Part shown: piece by piece, positions 25,352 through 30,362 of the stretch
Layout of the letters: every line of letters begins with the position of its first letter
Numbering within the stretch: the stretch's first letter is position 1
Origin: Agathobacter sp.
Lineage (GTDB): Bacteria; Bacillota; Clostridia; Lachnospirales; Lachnospiraceae
DNA: 51,934 nt
Reading direction: 5' to 3'
Assembly: GCA_017481285.1 (NCBI GenBank)
Contig: JAFUPI010000030.1
Span: forward strand, 1 to 51,934
Program-made: the position numbers and the translations under genes
The notes under the pieces: model-generated
What the model saw: only the letters and a program-made list of their open reading frames with translations
Told to the model about the DNA's origin: nothing
The model's database searches: none

Positions 25352-28204
25352 TTAGTTTGCTGGTCCAAGATAATCATAGTAATAGCAAAGTTTTGTCCAA
25401 GCATGATCTACATTTTCAAATGTATATTTGTCCATAATCATCTGGAGAACTTCTGCTAATTCTTCTGTTACAACTACACAGCCGTTACGTTCTACACTGC
25501 CGGTTTCAATCTTGCTGCAGTAAGCACGAACTGTTTCGGTATAATCTTTTCCTGTACCATGGTATTTGCCAGCATAAACATCTTTCAACTGATATTCTTC
25601 TGCATAAGCATCATAATCTTCACCCCAAAGGTCTTTGAGATACTTATCTGCAGCATCTACACTACCCTGAGCCTCGATAATAGAAAGAACATACATATCG
25701 TTTTCTGTCTTGCTGAAGTCAAAGCCACCCATGTCAATCATACCTTTTACGCCCTGGTTGGTCATAATAGGATTGCTGAATACGCCTGTGATACCAGTAA
25801 AGTCACAGTAGAGCTTGCTGCCCTTCTTGCCATTGCCTAAATCTTCGTAGTAGATTCCGTCATCACCGAGAACTACATCAATACCACCAGCGATTACGTA
25901 GTACATTGCGTCGCCTGTAGCATCGCTATCGTATGTAAAGTAACCTGGTGAAGCCAAACGGAATAAGTTATATGTTGGAGCAACATATTCAATATCATAA
26001 GTAATAGTACCTACTTCATATACATCCCAGAATGCGATGTCGATGTAGTATGCTTTGCCAACTTCCATGTAGAATACCATAGAAACTTCGCCTTCTTCTG
26101 TAAACATTCTTTCATCGCGTTCATATACGAGGAGTTCTTCACGGTTTTCATTGAAAATCCATGCATCTACACCCTGCTGAGATTCGTTATGAGAAGTAAT
26201 GCGGTATACACCAGAGGTAGTTGGAACGAATTTTGCCATTAAACCTCTTGGTAAGATTGCTCTATCATAGTAGAAGCTGTTTCCGCTTCCCATATGTGCA
26301 GTATATGCTGAGAATGTAGCAAGACCTTTGATTGGATCTTCTAACTGAATGCCAGCACCATATGCATCATAGTATTTACAAATCTTTAACCATTCATTTT
26401 CATCGTCTTCAAAACCATATTTTTCAGCAAATGCCATCAACAATTCGCCTAATTCTTTGGTTACTGGACATGAACCTGTTAACTGAGAGTTTGAAGCATA
26501 GTTTGCATACTGTTCCAAATCTGCGAAACGGTCTACGCCATCTACTTCAAATTTTCCGTCGTCATATACAAGCTCGTATACAGTTCCTTCTTCATTGAAC
26601 TGTGTATAATTTAATAAGTCAGCTAAAAGAAGTGGACCATTTGCAGTGCCTACATGGTAGTAGCCGTCTGCTGGATTATAAACGATATCTGCATAAGTAT
26701 AAGAACCATCTTCCTGTTCTACTGCTGCATATCTTGGAATATGTACAGTTGCGTTTTTGTCAATTGCATTAGCATCAACCACGCGTAAGTTCTTGATGTA
26801 TGCTGTATCATCACCTTCATTGGTGCTTTCATCCTTTAAGAAGCAAAGTGCAAGTTCATAAGTACCATCTTCCACTGCTACCCATGGATAACATGTTTTC
26901 CATGTAGGATTTTCATCTGCACCAGAAATCTGATAAATATCTTCGTCATTTACGATTACAACAAGTGCATCGTTTGCTCTTTCACAAGATACGATATAAT
27001 CGAATGCAATTGCCTGACCTTTCTTTAATTCGATGTCTGCATAAATAATTGCATAAGAATCTTCAATTCCCTTGTTAGAAGCATAGATACAGTTTGCACC
27101 ATTCTTTTCACCAAGAACAAATGGCCATGTAAATTCTGCTGCATCGCCTTCTTCTGCACGGTAAGTAATGCCTTCTGTACCATTGATTGCTGCTTCAATA
27201 TCTTCTGATTTTGGCATTTCATAGGTTGGTTTAATCTGAGTTACCAAATCAGCGATACCATTTACACAAAGTTTCTGCTCGTAATCCTTTGCTGTAAAGT
27301 GTTCAAAAGCAGAATAAAATGGTCTAAGGCTGGTAATCGCACCAGATTCTACACAACAAATTACACCATACTGGTCAATCAATACGGAGGTTGGGTAACC
27401 CTGAATACTGAATACATTTGACCATGATGTAGGACATTCTGCCATAATGAATGGTAAATTGTTGTTTGTCTGGAATGCCTTAACTGCATCAGCACCTTCG
27501 TTCATTGGGTCAAGAGCAAGGATTTCGATATCATCCTTATAGTCGTTATAAGCTTCTGCCATAACTGGGAACTCTTTTACACACCATGAACAGTTGGTGT
27601 ACCAGAAGTTCAACATAACCATTTTCTTTTCTTTCAAGAGTTCAGAAAGCTGAACCTTTTCGCCATCTGGTGTTGTGATAGTAAAGTCATACATTACATC
27701 ACCTAAACCAAGCTGTGCAGTAGAGATGTCATCATCTGTAATAAGAGATGAGGTAAGTACGATTTTGGCTTTCTTGCCATCGAACTGATAGTAATCCTTT
27801 ACTTCATATCCCTTTGGTGCTCCATCGATTTCGATGTAGTAATTGTCACTTTCAGGAAGTTCGAGTTCTACTGTACCATCTTCTTCCAATTCAGCTGCAT
27901 CAGCTAAATCTGTTAATTTCTCGTCATTATACACACGTACGTCGATATCAGAGAGAATCATGCCTCCCTTTGTCTTAACACTTACGGTGTATGTAGTCTT
28001 TTTGCCGGAACCAATCCCTGTGTTTCCGCCACCACCTTGTGCACCACTTCCACTAATGCCTACAACCAATGCAACGATTAACGCTACAACAGCTACAGCA
28101 CCAACGATAAGAGCCGCAAGGAATTTCTTGTCTGTCTTAGCACGTTCTACAATTACATTAAAATTTTCTGCAATTGTAATGCCTAAGTTCTTCAACTTTT
28201 CCAT
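25352..28204 (-). CDS. Membrane-anchored TlpA-like protein with two recurring C-terminal-type domains
   Basis: A 950-aa first gene of the operon. A basic cytoplasmic N-terminus and membrane helix (about 29-50) anchor it, with a glycine-rich linker. A beta domain (about 70-150) is followed by a TlpA-like domain (about 168-310) with WYTNCSWC (Cys205, Cys208) and cis-Pro GYPTSVLID. Then come a jelly-roll-like region (about 340-470), the recurring domain (about 480-630; ADGYYHVGTANGPLLLADL, EWLKICKYYDAYG), a PPC-like region (about 650-740) and a second, diverged copy at the C-terminus (DGIYYED; AWTKLCYYYDYLG). The CSWC redox motif is unusual: Ser-Trp rather than Gly-Pro should alter the redox potential. 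Start is fixed by AGGAGG 5 nt before the ATG; a TTGACT-N17-TAGAAT promoter lies upstream. Substrate unknown. Confidence 0.85.
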   Translation of the reverse strand: MEKLKNLGITIAENFNVIVERAKTDKKFLAALIVGAVAVVALIVALVVGISGSGAQGGGGNTGIGSGKKTTYTVSVKTKGGMILSDIDVRVYNDEKLTDLADAAELEEDGTVELELPESDNYYIEIDGAPKGYEVKDYYQFDGKKAKIVLTSSLITDDDISTAQLGLGDVMYDFTITTPDGEKVQLSELLKEKKMVMLNFWYTNCSWCVKEFPVMAEAYNDYKDDIEILALDPMNEGADAVKAFQTNNNLPFIMAECPTSWSNVFSIQGYPTSVLIDQYGVICCVESGAITSLRPFYSAFEHFTAKDYEQKLCVNGIADLVTQIKPTYEMPKSEDIEAAINGTEGITYRAEEGDAAEFTWPFVLGEKNGANCIYASNKGIEDSYAIIYADIELKKGQAIAFDYIVSCERANDALVVIVNDEDIYQISGADENPTWKTCYPWVAVEDGTYELALCFLKDESTNEGDDTAYIKNLRVVDANAIDKNATVHIPRYAAVEQEDGSYTYADIVYNPADGYYHVGTANGPLLLADLLNYTQFNEEGTVYELVYDDGKFEVDGVDRFADLEQYANYASNSQLTGSCPVTKELGELLMAFAEKYGFEDDENEWLKICKYYDAYGAGIQLEDPIKGLATFSAYTAHMGSGNSFYYDRAILPRGLMAKFVPTTSGVYRITSHNESQQGVDAWIFNENREELLVYERDERMFTEEGEVSMVFYMEVGKAYYIDIAFWDVYEVGTITYDIEYVAPTYNLFRLASPGYFTYDSDATGDAMYYVIAGGIDVVLGDDGIYYEDLGNGKKGSKLYCDFTGITGVFSNPIMTNQGVKGMIDMGGFDFSKTENDMYVLSIIEAQGSVDAADKYLKDLWGEDYDAYAEEYQLKDVYAGKYHGTGKDYTETVRAYCSKIETGSVERNGCVVVTEELAEVLQMIMDKYTFENVDHAWTKLCYYYDYLGPAN

Positions 28205-28281: not shown

Positions 28282-28310
28282 ATTCTATCATAGGAAGATA
28301 ATTGAGTCAA
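28282..28310 (-). promoter_or_regulatory. Promoter of the TlpA-associated operon
   Basis: Minus-strand TTGACT, 17-nt spacer, TAGAAT preceded by TGA (extended -10). The leader is about 70 nt, and no other strong promoter is seen down to 20510. Confidence 0.75.
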
Positions 28311-28341
28311 CACAAAATCACTAGTATATTGTATACAATAC

Positions 28342-28891
28342 AAGGCTGTCGCAAATATACATTTGTGGCTGCCTTATTTAGAATTCGCAATAAATATGCC
28401 ACTGTCTCTTCTTGAAATTTTCTCACGTTAAGAAAAATGCTTATTTTCTAAGAAACACACTTCCGACTTTTGTGATTTTTTATGTCTTTCAAATATTTTA
28501 CAATCTGCGAAAGAATGTCCGTGTGAGAAAAGACACCTTTACAGACTTTTCGCGTGTCTCTTAGTACGACGGATTTATATAATGTCATATGCATGCTCGA
28601 CTGTTTGAGGTGCTGCTTTTGCACCGAGTTTCGAGCATGCATATGTAATATCAACTATATAAAGACGTCGTACTTAGAGACACTAGGAAAGGATGTACCA
28701 GTGTCTTTTTCACATCGGACATACTTCGCAGATTGTAAAATGGATGAAAGACACAAAACTTAAGTCGGAAGTGTGTTTCATGAAAATATAGCATTTTTCT
28801 CCAAGGCTCGAAAATCCCAAGAAGAGACAGCGGCATATTTTCTTGCAAAACAAAATTAAGGCTGCCACAAATGTATATTTGCGACAGCCTT
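28342..28891. repeat. 550-bp near-palindromic (foldback) element
   Basis: The left half and the reverse complement of the right half align along almost their full 270-nt length, meeting at a short apical hairpin (GGTGC, 7-nt loop, GCACC at 28609-28625). Outer 34-35 nt arms are nearly identical. Long exact internal matches occur at equal distance from the centre, for example 28452-28468 with 28763-28779 and 28586-28600 with 28631-28645. Mismatches and small indels are spread between. Each end is itself a 15-bp hairpin like a terminator. No convincing gene or transposase lies inside, and no clear target duplication flanks it. It may be a nonautonomous foldback (MITE-like) element, a long-hairpin RNA gene or an old inverted duplication. 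Confidence 0.9.
28858..28891 (-). terminator. Terminator of the chemoreceptor gene (outer arm of the palindrome)
   Basis: On the minus strand a 15-bp stem (AAGGCTGTCGCAAAT with ATTTGTGGCAGCCTT, G-T wobbles) closes a 4-nt loop and runs into AATTTTGTTTTG. It begins 6 nt after the chemoreceptor stop codon. Confidence 0.75.
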
Positions 28892-28896
28892 GGATG

Positions 28897-30324
28897 TTAT
28901 TCTTCAATTTCAGCTCGGCGAGTTGACTCAATAACTTTCTCGATATTTTCTTTGTATAAGTCCATGGCATCAATAATTGCACCAACGGATTTCTGGTTAT
29001 CTGCAGAATAGTTCTGCATCTCTGCAACCCTTGCACGAAGATCGTGGAAAATATTTCCAACTTCGTTGACATTGTTGTTCTGCGTAGCGATGTTTCCATA
29101 TAAGGCATCAAACTGCTTCGTCAAGCGTTCAAAGCTTTCCTGAAGCTCATCCATAGATGCTTTGGATTCTTCCAATGCTTTGGTACTATCCTGGAACTGA
29201 TGAGCCGTTTCACCAACCTCTTTTTCCAATTCTTTTACAACCTCAGATACCTGCTCTGAGAAGATATTGCTGTTATTTGAAAGCTGACGCATCTCAGATG
29301 CAACAACTTCAAAACCAGCTCCGCTCTCTCCTGCTCTGGCAGCTTCAATCGAAGCATTCAATGAAAGAATTGTGGTATTGAAAGAGATATCTCCTAACTG
29401 GTCTGCAATATCTGCAACCTCACCCATTTTCTGTTCCATCGCCTGGAACACTTCGTTGGCTTCGTTTACTGTTGAAGTAACTGCTGCTAGATGCTGTTCC
29501 ATATTTGCGATATTTTCCTGATTTTCCCTCAAAGCAATTTCAAATCGGGTCACCTGCTCGTTTAACTCGATGATGGACTGCTGTGAAATAATGATTCTAT
29601 CCTGTACGTCATCACAGCTTCCCTGCATGTTAATCGCGCTCTCTACGATCGATTTGGAACCTTTTTGAAGTTCTGCTGTGTTGTTATTGATATGTGCTGA
29701 GGATTTCGCAAAATCATGATCCAATTCCTCACCCATATCCTTCATCGATTCCACGAGGCCTTCGGCTTCTTTGGCTCGGTCTTCTCCGATACCAATGAAT
29801 GCCTTGCCACGTTTGATGGTCTGGATGAAAAGCACACCTGTCAATACAAACTCACCCACGCACTGTGCATACTGTCCGATTGGATCTGCTTTTTCTGGAT
29901 GAAGCACATACATTATAATGAGAAAACAGGTCGCCATAACAAGCTGTACAATAGAGTATTTAGGCTCCAAATACAAACCTGTCAAAGCAATAACTGCCAG
30001 GAACATAATGAAGTCATCACTAAAATATCCTCCACTGTTTAAGGCAATAATAAAAATCAATACCATTAAAGAAATTGCCAGCACAAACTGCTTGGTGGTT
30101 TCTTTCGCTTTTCTAAGATGTAAAATCAAAAAGAGAATACCGAATACCGCAATAGTTGCACCAATCATCAGTGCTTGTGAAATTGCGCCACCGAGCAAAT
30201 TCTTCAAAAAGAAGAAGGATGACACCGCTATTGTAAGTATTAACATAAACCTAAAAATCTTTTCCTGTGTAATCGGTGCCTTGTTATCTTTCTTTTCCTT
30301 ATCTTTCTTTTGTAATAATCCCAT
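28897..30324 (-). CDS. Methyl-accepting chemotaxis protein without an extracellular sensor domain
   Basis: A 475-aa chemoreceptor-like signal transducer. The N-terminal 180 residues form about six closely spaced membrane helices with only short loops, so there is no external ligand domain. No HAMP domain is apparent. Residues about 200-475 are a long coiled coil with the signalling-tip sequence SLNASIEAARAGESGAGFEV, followed by VASEMRQLS, the CheA/CheW contact region. It would sense something in the membrane or cytoplasm, such as redox or energy state, and feed the chemotaxis pathway; that is inference. A TTG at 30339 is in frame, but GGAGG 8 nt before the ATG at 30324 decides the start. The ribosome site lies in a perfect inverted repeat (30325-30340). 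It is monocistronic, ending at the palindrome hairpin. Confidence 0.88.
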   Translation of the reverse strand: MGLLQKKDKEKKDNKAPITQEKIFRFMLILTIAVSSFFFLKNLLGGAISQALMIGATIAVFGILFLILHLRKAKETTKQFVLAISLMVLIFIIALNSGGYFSDDFIMFLAVIALTGLYLEPKYSIVQLVMATCFLIIMYVLHPEKADPIGQYAQCVGEFVLTGVLFIQTIKRGKAFIGIGEDRAKEAEGLVESMKDMGEELDHDFAKSSAHINNNTAELQKGSKSIVESAINMQGSCDDVQDRIIISQQSIIELNEQVTRFEIALRENQENIANMEQHLAAVTSTVNEANEVFQAMEQKMGEVADIADQLGDISFNTTILSLNASIEAARAGESGAGFEVVASEMRQLSNNSNIFSEQVSEVVKELEKEVGETAHQFQDSTKALEESKASMDELQESFERLTKQFDALYGNIATQNNNVNEVGNIFHDLRARVAEMQNYSADNQKSVGAIIDAMDLYKENIEKVIESTRRAEIEE

Positions 30325-30362
30325 TTTGGAGTCCTCCAAATTTTATAAAATCCCTAACTTGT

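Follow-up and report, generated by a model that had tools for sequence, protein, structure and literature searches.

The window analysed here, a stretch of 51,934 nucleotides of an Agathobacter sp. contig (JAFUPI010000030.1), was found to carry a giant imperfect palindrome at positions 28342..28891, which represents one copy of a family. We regard it as reasonably probable that the family consists of non-autonomous intergenic foldback elements of about 550–650 bp, each of which forms a single hairpin over its whole length, is tolerated at terminators and has arms that correct one another. The copies are dispersed and have both occupied and empty sites; their arms are complementary, the loop is conserved, the core has been inverted, and the terminator-like tips usually lie at gene 3′ ends.

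Structure and surroundings of the palindrome

Self-alignment identified a single palindrome over 28338-28895 (579 aligned columns, 77.5% complementary), with a GGTGC/GCACC stem-loop at its centre. RNA folding of the two strands gave −304 and −315 kcal/mol compared with shuffle means of −122 and −120 (z of −25 and −29), and none of 100 shuffles folded as low for either strand. The near-perfect palindrome proposed in an earlier, sequence-only reading is thus real, and its central stem-loop is as that reading had placed it.

The left tip (28342..28375, plus strand) is of the kind called A-type here, a terminator-like hairpin AAGGCTGTCGCAAAT...GCTGCCTT, while the right tip (28858..28891, minus strand), located 5 bp past the stop codon of a chemotaxis gene, is its inverted copy. 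The two 34-nt tips differ at one position, in keeping with the near-identity already remarked upon. Outside the tips and symmetric about them is an outer inverted repeat (83%) with halves at 28294..28311 (plus strand) and 28922..28939 (minus strand), the latter within the coding end of the chemotaxis gene. An inner hairpin which is conserved across genera occupies 28554..28683 of the plus strand and is described by a covariance model of 130 positions, R1. Its internal loop has conserved motifs on the same strand, TGTTTGAG on the 5′ side (28602..28609) and CGAGTT on the 3′ side (28625..28630), the plus strand being the one with the loop motif in this copy.

Both neighbouring genes are on the minus strand. 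On the right, the gene for a methyl-accepting chemotaxis protein (28897..30339) has its 3′ end abutting the tip; on the left, a gene for a 950-aa protein with a thioredoxin-like domain (25352..28204) has its 5′ end ~137 bp away from the tip. The longest ORF mostly within the palindrome is of 69 aa, in agreement with the earlier statement that no credible gene lies inside. A 133-aa ORF (28710-29111, minus strand) shares sequence with the right arm and, in a different frame, with the end of the chemotaxis gene.

Copies in the genome of the same organism

The assembly to which the window belongs (GCA_017481285.1, here G000) comprises 1.96 Mb and is 71% complete. BLAST with the 550-bp element returned 76 matches in it. 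Loci were fetched by BLAST match and by end motif prior to a scan with a profile built on 16 copies, which identified 53 element pieces at 52 of 66 loci; overlapping re-fetches (L027-L035, L101) had been left out before counting. A search for further copies in this genome and its relatives, as the sequence-only reading had recommended, therefore disclosed a dispersed family with dozens of members.

Thirteen complete copies inside contigs (L001-L003, L005, L006, L008-L011, L013, L014, L016, and L018) are palindromes of 553-641 bp with arms agreeing at 70-79%. Divergence from copy to copy reaches about 28%, and some arm mismatches are conserved in nearly all of a set of 16 copies. Shorter forms with a symmetrically missing centre were also found (L045, 386 bp; L050, 404 bp). 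Of 53 copies classed by their neighbouring genes, 24 are situated between convergent genes, 23 between tandem genes and six between divergent genes. In a set of 56 copies, ORFs of at least 100 aa are present in 24, and of at least 120 aa in 14, with varying frames and strands; a Pfam search with eight of the longer ones gave nothing at cut-off and one weak match (E 0.075). The element had no match in phage and plasmid collections, nor did its pattern match viral contigs. Further palindromes outside the family, mostly AT-rich, were observed in G000 (L072 922-1168, L016 694-916, and L041 2167-2387).

Thirty seven of the 53 pieces touch a contig end. Since the assembly breaks at the elements, the number of copies seen can be put at about 35 to 53. 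Palindromic sequence is known to be hazardous for assembly, and so many pieces at contig ends would be in line with the family being an artefact. We give this explanation virtually no credence, however, as complete copies lie inside contigs, the same sites are occupied in independent metagenome-assembled genomes (MAGs), and it is refuted by 14 copies in 340 kb of the single-contig chromosome of Roseburia hominis A2-183.

Occupied and empty sites in a sister species

The sister species is represented by the goat-colon MAG Agathobacter sp. RGIG2097 (JAFQRZ; G060, which is identical with G070). When the genome_contigs collection was scanned for the pattern, 11 stretches were returned, nine of them in G060 and one in each of two roe-deer MAGs. 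G060 gave 73 matches, and the element was present at all 42 of its loci, two of which duplicate others, giving about 40 copies. Flanks common to the two species are mostly 77-93% identical. At nine G000 sites, identified by one flank or both, G060 carries the element too. The window's own site is occupied there with both flanks matching; the possibility raised earlier, that the element might be an assembly artefact, is contradicted by this independent MAG of another species.

Eight G000 sites are empty in G060 with both flanks located, within about 1.2 Mb of that genome: L003, L006, L011, L014, L016, L018, L047/L074, and L062/L066, the last two each assembled from two contig ends. For L004, L017, L046, and L061 a single flank was found in G060, with no element beside it. 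The comparison with empty sites that the sequence-only reading had called for was thus productive as regards the sites themselves, but the target duplications at L018 (9 bp) and L006 (5 bp), each with an empty site, are only suggestive. A 9-base direct repeat adjoins the element at L095, and pooling of six copies with B-type ends (see below) gave a target duplication value of 34 against 30.3 ± 2.2, which was reached by 241 of 3000 shuffles and is not significant. The many dispersed copies, the empty sites in a relative and the absence of a credible gene support the nonautonomous foldback element that was among the interpretations first offered.

The inner ~400 bp of L010 and of its ortholog L087 have opposite orientations with respect to the outer arms, which lends support to the recombination-prone site also suggested at the outset. 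Of 158 pairs in the cores of the two copies, 11 have changed on both sides and 13 on one side only, where 1.9 two-sided changes would be expected. A ~115-bp miniature was observed in G060 (L178, about 1625-1740), which has kept both B-type tips and lost its arms almost wholly. Palindromes outside the family also occur in G060, e.g., L224 5409-5727 and L164 6952-7105; they account for five of at least 120 bp in 338 kb of contig C17 and for about 25 of 30 in another 852 kb.

The two roe-deer MAG contigs, which share a site with L013, are probably from the window's own species and mis-binned, and the same is probable for a G152 contig end at the site of L004. The element was observed at sites of the window's species within MAGs of other taxa, namely L229 (G152:C80), L082/L089 (G061), and L086/L088 (G062), and these contigs are probably binning errors.

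Tips and transcription terminators

Two main kinds of tip were distinguished. A-type tips (AGGGCTGTCGCAAAT..) form a hairpin; in G060 the majority (26 of 43 tips) are of the B-type (CTTCAATTCGTAAAG..). Among 110 tips with a called neighbour, the ratio of gene 3′ to 5′ ends was 42:14 for A-type and 16:38 for the others (Fisher p = 3e-6), counts which are based on simple longest-ORF calls and which omit L112, L157 and tips with <300 bases of flank. Where A-type tips face 3′ ends, the stop codon is no more than 41 bp away in 38 of 42 cases. Of 43 B-type tips, 30 are directed toward 5′ ends, and 26 of these 30 are located 37-139 bp from the start codon. On sequence grounds, tips adjoining the 3′ end of a gene look like intrinsic terminators, with a putative role in termination. 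In R. hominis the outermost bases vary by site yet are symmetric, and the ends are again terminator-like.

At the empty site of L011, G060 has a plain terminator hairpin with a loop matching the tips of L011 itself, and the tip sequence is therefore at least partly derived from the site. At the sites of L003, L014, and L062/L066, the G060 terminator is different from that of the element, which speaks against the foldback reading. Simple terminator-like hairpins that share the GGCTGTCGCAAA stem of the A-type tips but have no element were observed at L051 1520-1555, L055, G000:C89:1180-1214, and G000:C35:9261-9293; the L051 hairpin has a conserved counterpart at the corresponding G060 site.

The copies could be viewed as domesticated giant bidirectional terminators, in which tips and closing stem would stop transcription between converging genes. 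The A-type tips directed toward 3′ ends in 42 of 56 cases, mostly close to the stop codon, the 24 of 53 copies between convergent genes and the terminator-like ends in R. hominis are in accordance with this. However, most B-type tips are directed toward 5′ ends, the sister species manages with a short terminator at these sites, and the conserved central loop would be left unexplained, so that we find such a role as the basis of the family very doubtful.

Relatives detected by structure

A DNA search of 60 relatives yielded no homologues, which was misleading, since a structure search later found them; the DNA search of 397 genomes of the bacterial family found only the element's own genome and one G152 contig end. 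Covariance model R1, in comparison, matches 15 of 394 genomes of relatives at E ≤ 0.01, distributed over six genera, with ten of the genomes in the genus and five in other genera. Scoring was limited to eight candidates per genome, so that copy numbers are lower bounds, and stricter filters lose weak matches. As R1 was trained on G000, G060, and R. hominis A2-183 (G034), 12 of the 15 matched genomes are new. From these 12, 22 loci were inspected, with the weakest matches included, and 20 were palindromic (258-672 bp); of the remaining two, L288 is of 227 bp and L304 has no palindrome beyond the model.

The genome of R. hominis A2-183 is a single contig of 3,592,125 bp. Eight palindromes (513-684 bp) were found in 200 kb of spaced 20-kb samples and six more (495-669 bp) in a further 140 kb, i.e., 14 in 340 kb. 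Provided that the samples are representative, this density of about 41 per Mb would give about 150 for the whole chromosome. The loop motif is present in 13 of the 14, the exception being L278, which is without a centre. The R. hominis copies align with the window's family; their stems differ, and the TGTCTGAG..CGAGTT motif is common to both. Three other genomes of the genus, sampled at 200, 140, and 120 kb, had four, one, and one palindromes, respectively, and the motif pattern was absent from them. Palindromes free of the motif pattern were observed in two single-contig genomes of the genus, at L245 13755-14182 (G015, 428 bp) and L269 17367-17697 (G064, 331 bp).

Recurring stop-free frames were observed in the R. 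hominis copies, e.g., L255 8228-8617 (plus strand) and L280 12035-12592 (minus strand), one of them starting at the ATGTCTGAG of the loop motif. They occur on either strand and differ in length, with no Pfam match among those searched, and at most a short coding function is conceivable.

Covariation and the conserved loop

An alignment of 27 sequences from 12 genomes was examined for pairing. An initial alignment (A4) held opposite-strand rows and was replaced by one made at a stricter threshold (A5), which is without G185, G154, and G103. Pairing was retained in 98.2% of 717 cells, compared with 61.9% in shuffles and 31-49% in slid structures, and the covariation score was 0.908 vs 0.208, values to be read in the light of the alignment having been fitted to the covariance model, which biases it toward pairing. 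Changed cells were two-sided in 254 cases and one-sided in 20, of which 13 fall at one pair. The covariance analysis proposed in the sequence-only reading therefore revealed abundant compensatory changes, and other copies exist, so that neither of the two findings which would have left only an old inverted duplication was obtained. Its view that the duplication is not recent and that pairing persists was correct and even understated, as paired changes span whole stems across genera.

The motif TG[TC]YYGA..GAGTT was present in all 27 sequences. Outside the alignment, G185 and G103 conform to it; the sequence in G154 is TGTGTGA. When each genome is represented by a single copy, conservation is higher in the unpaired columns than in the paired columns (0.72 vs 0.61). 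Such a conserved loop asks for a putative binding partner, a point which we count against the foldback reading.

One explanation of these observations is a family of large structured non-coding RNAs, in which the transcribed loop strand would fold and a protein would bind the TGTYTGAG//CGAGTT loop, which has tandem G-A and may be kink-turn-like. The very strong covariation, the invariable presence of the internal loop and the strand-specific score of R1 (141.7 bits for L010, 45.3 on the other strand) all favour this explanation. If the loop strand acts as RNA, G.U pairs should exceed A.C. Over all arms (49 copies, 15 genomes, symmetric scoring) there is no such excess, with 292 G.U vs 314 A.C among 12,509 pairs; with one copy per genome the counts were 90 vs 75 (p = 0.28), and earlier counts were 85 vs 84 cells (16 copies) and 114 vs 105 (21 copies). 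The inner 130 nt lean to RNA (59 vs 29, p = 0.002), whereas the outer arms lean the opposite way (233 vs 285, p = 0.025). Acceptor stems of 14 tRNAs on the same stretches (98 pairs), in the register with most Watson-Crick pairs, served as control and gave eight G.U and one A.C.

Several further observations oppose a structured RNA. One-sided changes are few, the orientation of the loop strand to transcription in 23 tandem contexts is random (10 same, 13 opposite), the core is inverted between orthologs, and no Rfam 15 family reaches its cut-off (the best in the window is MIR1435, with 30.1 bits against a cut-off of 94). The structured RNA suggested from the sequence is consequently weakened by the lack of a G.U excess over all arms and by random orientation, and it retains some backing from the inner hairpin; for the family as a whole we judge it unlikely. 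Since there is no overall G.U excess, the loop orientation is random, paired changes are mostly transversions and the core can be inverted, the pairing of the arms is probably kept at the DNA level and not as the RNA of one strand, although selection of both strands as RNA would likewise be compatible with equal G.U and A.C.

Template switching has been reported to create and repair hairpins and to be a source of paired changes (PMC8794818). The palindromes could on that basis be a mutational by-product, that is, old inverted duplications with arms kept alike by replication template switching in the absence of selection or active spread. Besides the published process, the paired transversions (103 vs 62 transitions among paired changes) and the tips, which are site-specific yet symmetric on both sides, are in agreement with this. 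Against it are the sites that are empty in one of two sister species, the dozens of homologous copies per genome, the loop motif kept across genera and the arm mismatches that nearly all of the 16 copies share, and we hold an origin by mutation alone to be distinctly improbable.

A more tentative proposal, to which we would attach some though limited confidence, is that these are mobile elements conserved as a DNA shape and not as a sequence: a ~600-nt hairpin of single-stranded or cruciform DNA with its TGTYTGAG//CGAGTT loop recognised by a protein of transposition or maintenance, and with stems rewritten pair by pair through arm-to-arm templating, which may make up about 2-3% of some gut genomes.

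SbcCD and palindrome stability

Long palindromes are generally regarded as short-lived in bacterial genomes. In G000 and the sister genome, no SbcD above the model cut-off and only trivial SbcC matches were found. Of 62 genomes of the genus, 29 have an SbcD match exceeding the cut-off, and among 10 genomes searched for SbcC none attained the curated cut-off. In R. hominis, SbcD exceeds its cut-off and SbcC gives a match with an E of 3.5e-41, which is below the curated cut-off. Loss of the hairpin nuclease SbcCD as a precondition for the family was dropped, as R. hominis, with SbcD and this strong SbcC match, has the densest family sampled. A weaker Mre11-like match was observed in many genomes of the genus, and in G000 it is found beside clpX (L241 1886-2980).

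Comparison with known elements

Integron attC sites and REP/REPIN sequences are recognised as folded single-stranded DNA and have conserved unpaired bases. Both are far shorter than the present element, and the likeness is by description only.

Bacterial MITEs such as Correia/NEMIS, RUP and ERIC are similarly dispersed, non-coding and mostly intergenic, with inverted repeats and foldable transcripts, as portrayed in a review of them (PMC2229807). The element shares with MITEs terminal inverted repeats (arms pairing over nearly their full length in complete copies), the absence of an encoded transposase (longest ORF of the window's copy 69 aa) and dispersed copies with empty sites in relatives (eight empty, nine occupied). 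However, the same review gives MITEs about 100-200 bp and short TIRs (PMC2229807), whereas the element has about 550-650 bp and is nearly all inverted repeat; its loop motif is conserved across genera while stems change, and a limited search found no matching IS. The PATEs of Haloquadratum are likewise without transposase, palindrome-bearing and of high copy number, but their description (PMC3119063) gives them no TIRs or target duplications, short near-terminal palindromes and kinship to IS605 ends. The present element is in its entirety one palindrome, and its full-length inverted repeat sets it apart from the TIR-less PATEs.

Hairpin elements of sponge mitochondria (PMC2800124) are also intergenic and scattered and keep their shape while the sequence differs; they are mitochondrial, and the likeness is one of shape and distribution. 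Families of bacterial stem-loop repeats from a survey of 40 genomes have a common predicted fold and are two thirds intergenic (PMC2267715), and are likened here by description alone. A literature search, mostly of papers free of subscription, found no description of the present family. A term search of the R. hominis genome announcement found repeats mentioned only for its CRISPR array, and one of a paper on 104 candidate RNAs (PMC2864571) found nothing related.

Proposed mode of persistence and implications

Neither a transposase nor an autonomous relative came to light in a search confined to one transposase family and the motif of the B-type ends. The end motif gave no evident transposon in the two species and 62 genomes of the genus, and the search for an ISLre2 transposase returned no match, a result made uninformative by an equally silent control. 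As a foldback element, the palindrome would spread as DNA by means of a transposase acting in trans. It would survive best at transcription terminators, where a folding insert would keep both stem halves of the terminator in contact; copies would persist between genes, at terminators and in upstream regions. Complementarity of the arms would be maintained chiefly in the DNA, through recombination of one arm with the other or template switching between them, possibly aided by selection for a single-stranded or cruciform DNA fold with the conserved loop as its recognition site.

The element may explain the broken assemblies of these species, and it could serve as a marker of terminator-associated mobile DNA. 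The sampling suggests about 150 imperfect ~600-bp palindromes in the chromosome of a well-studied gut commensal which has SbcD and an SbcC-like protein. If a class of elements conserved by shape is indeed represented here, the family would be nearly invisible to cross-species sequence search. Near-perfect covariation without a clear wobble signature is also a warning not to take covariation by itself as proof of a structured RNA, and the family offers a natural system in which template switching can be tested as a source of paired changes.
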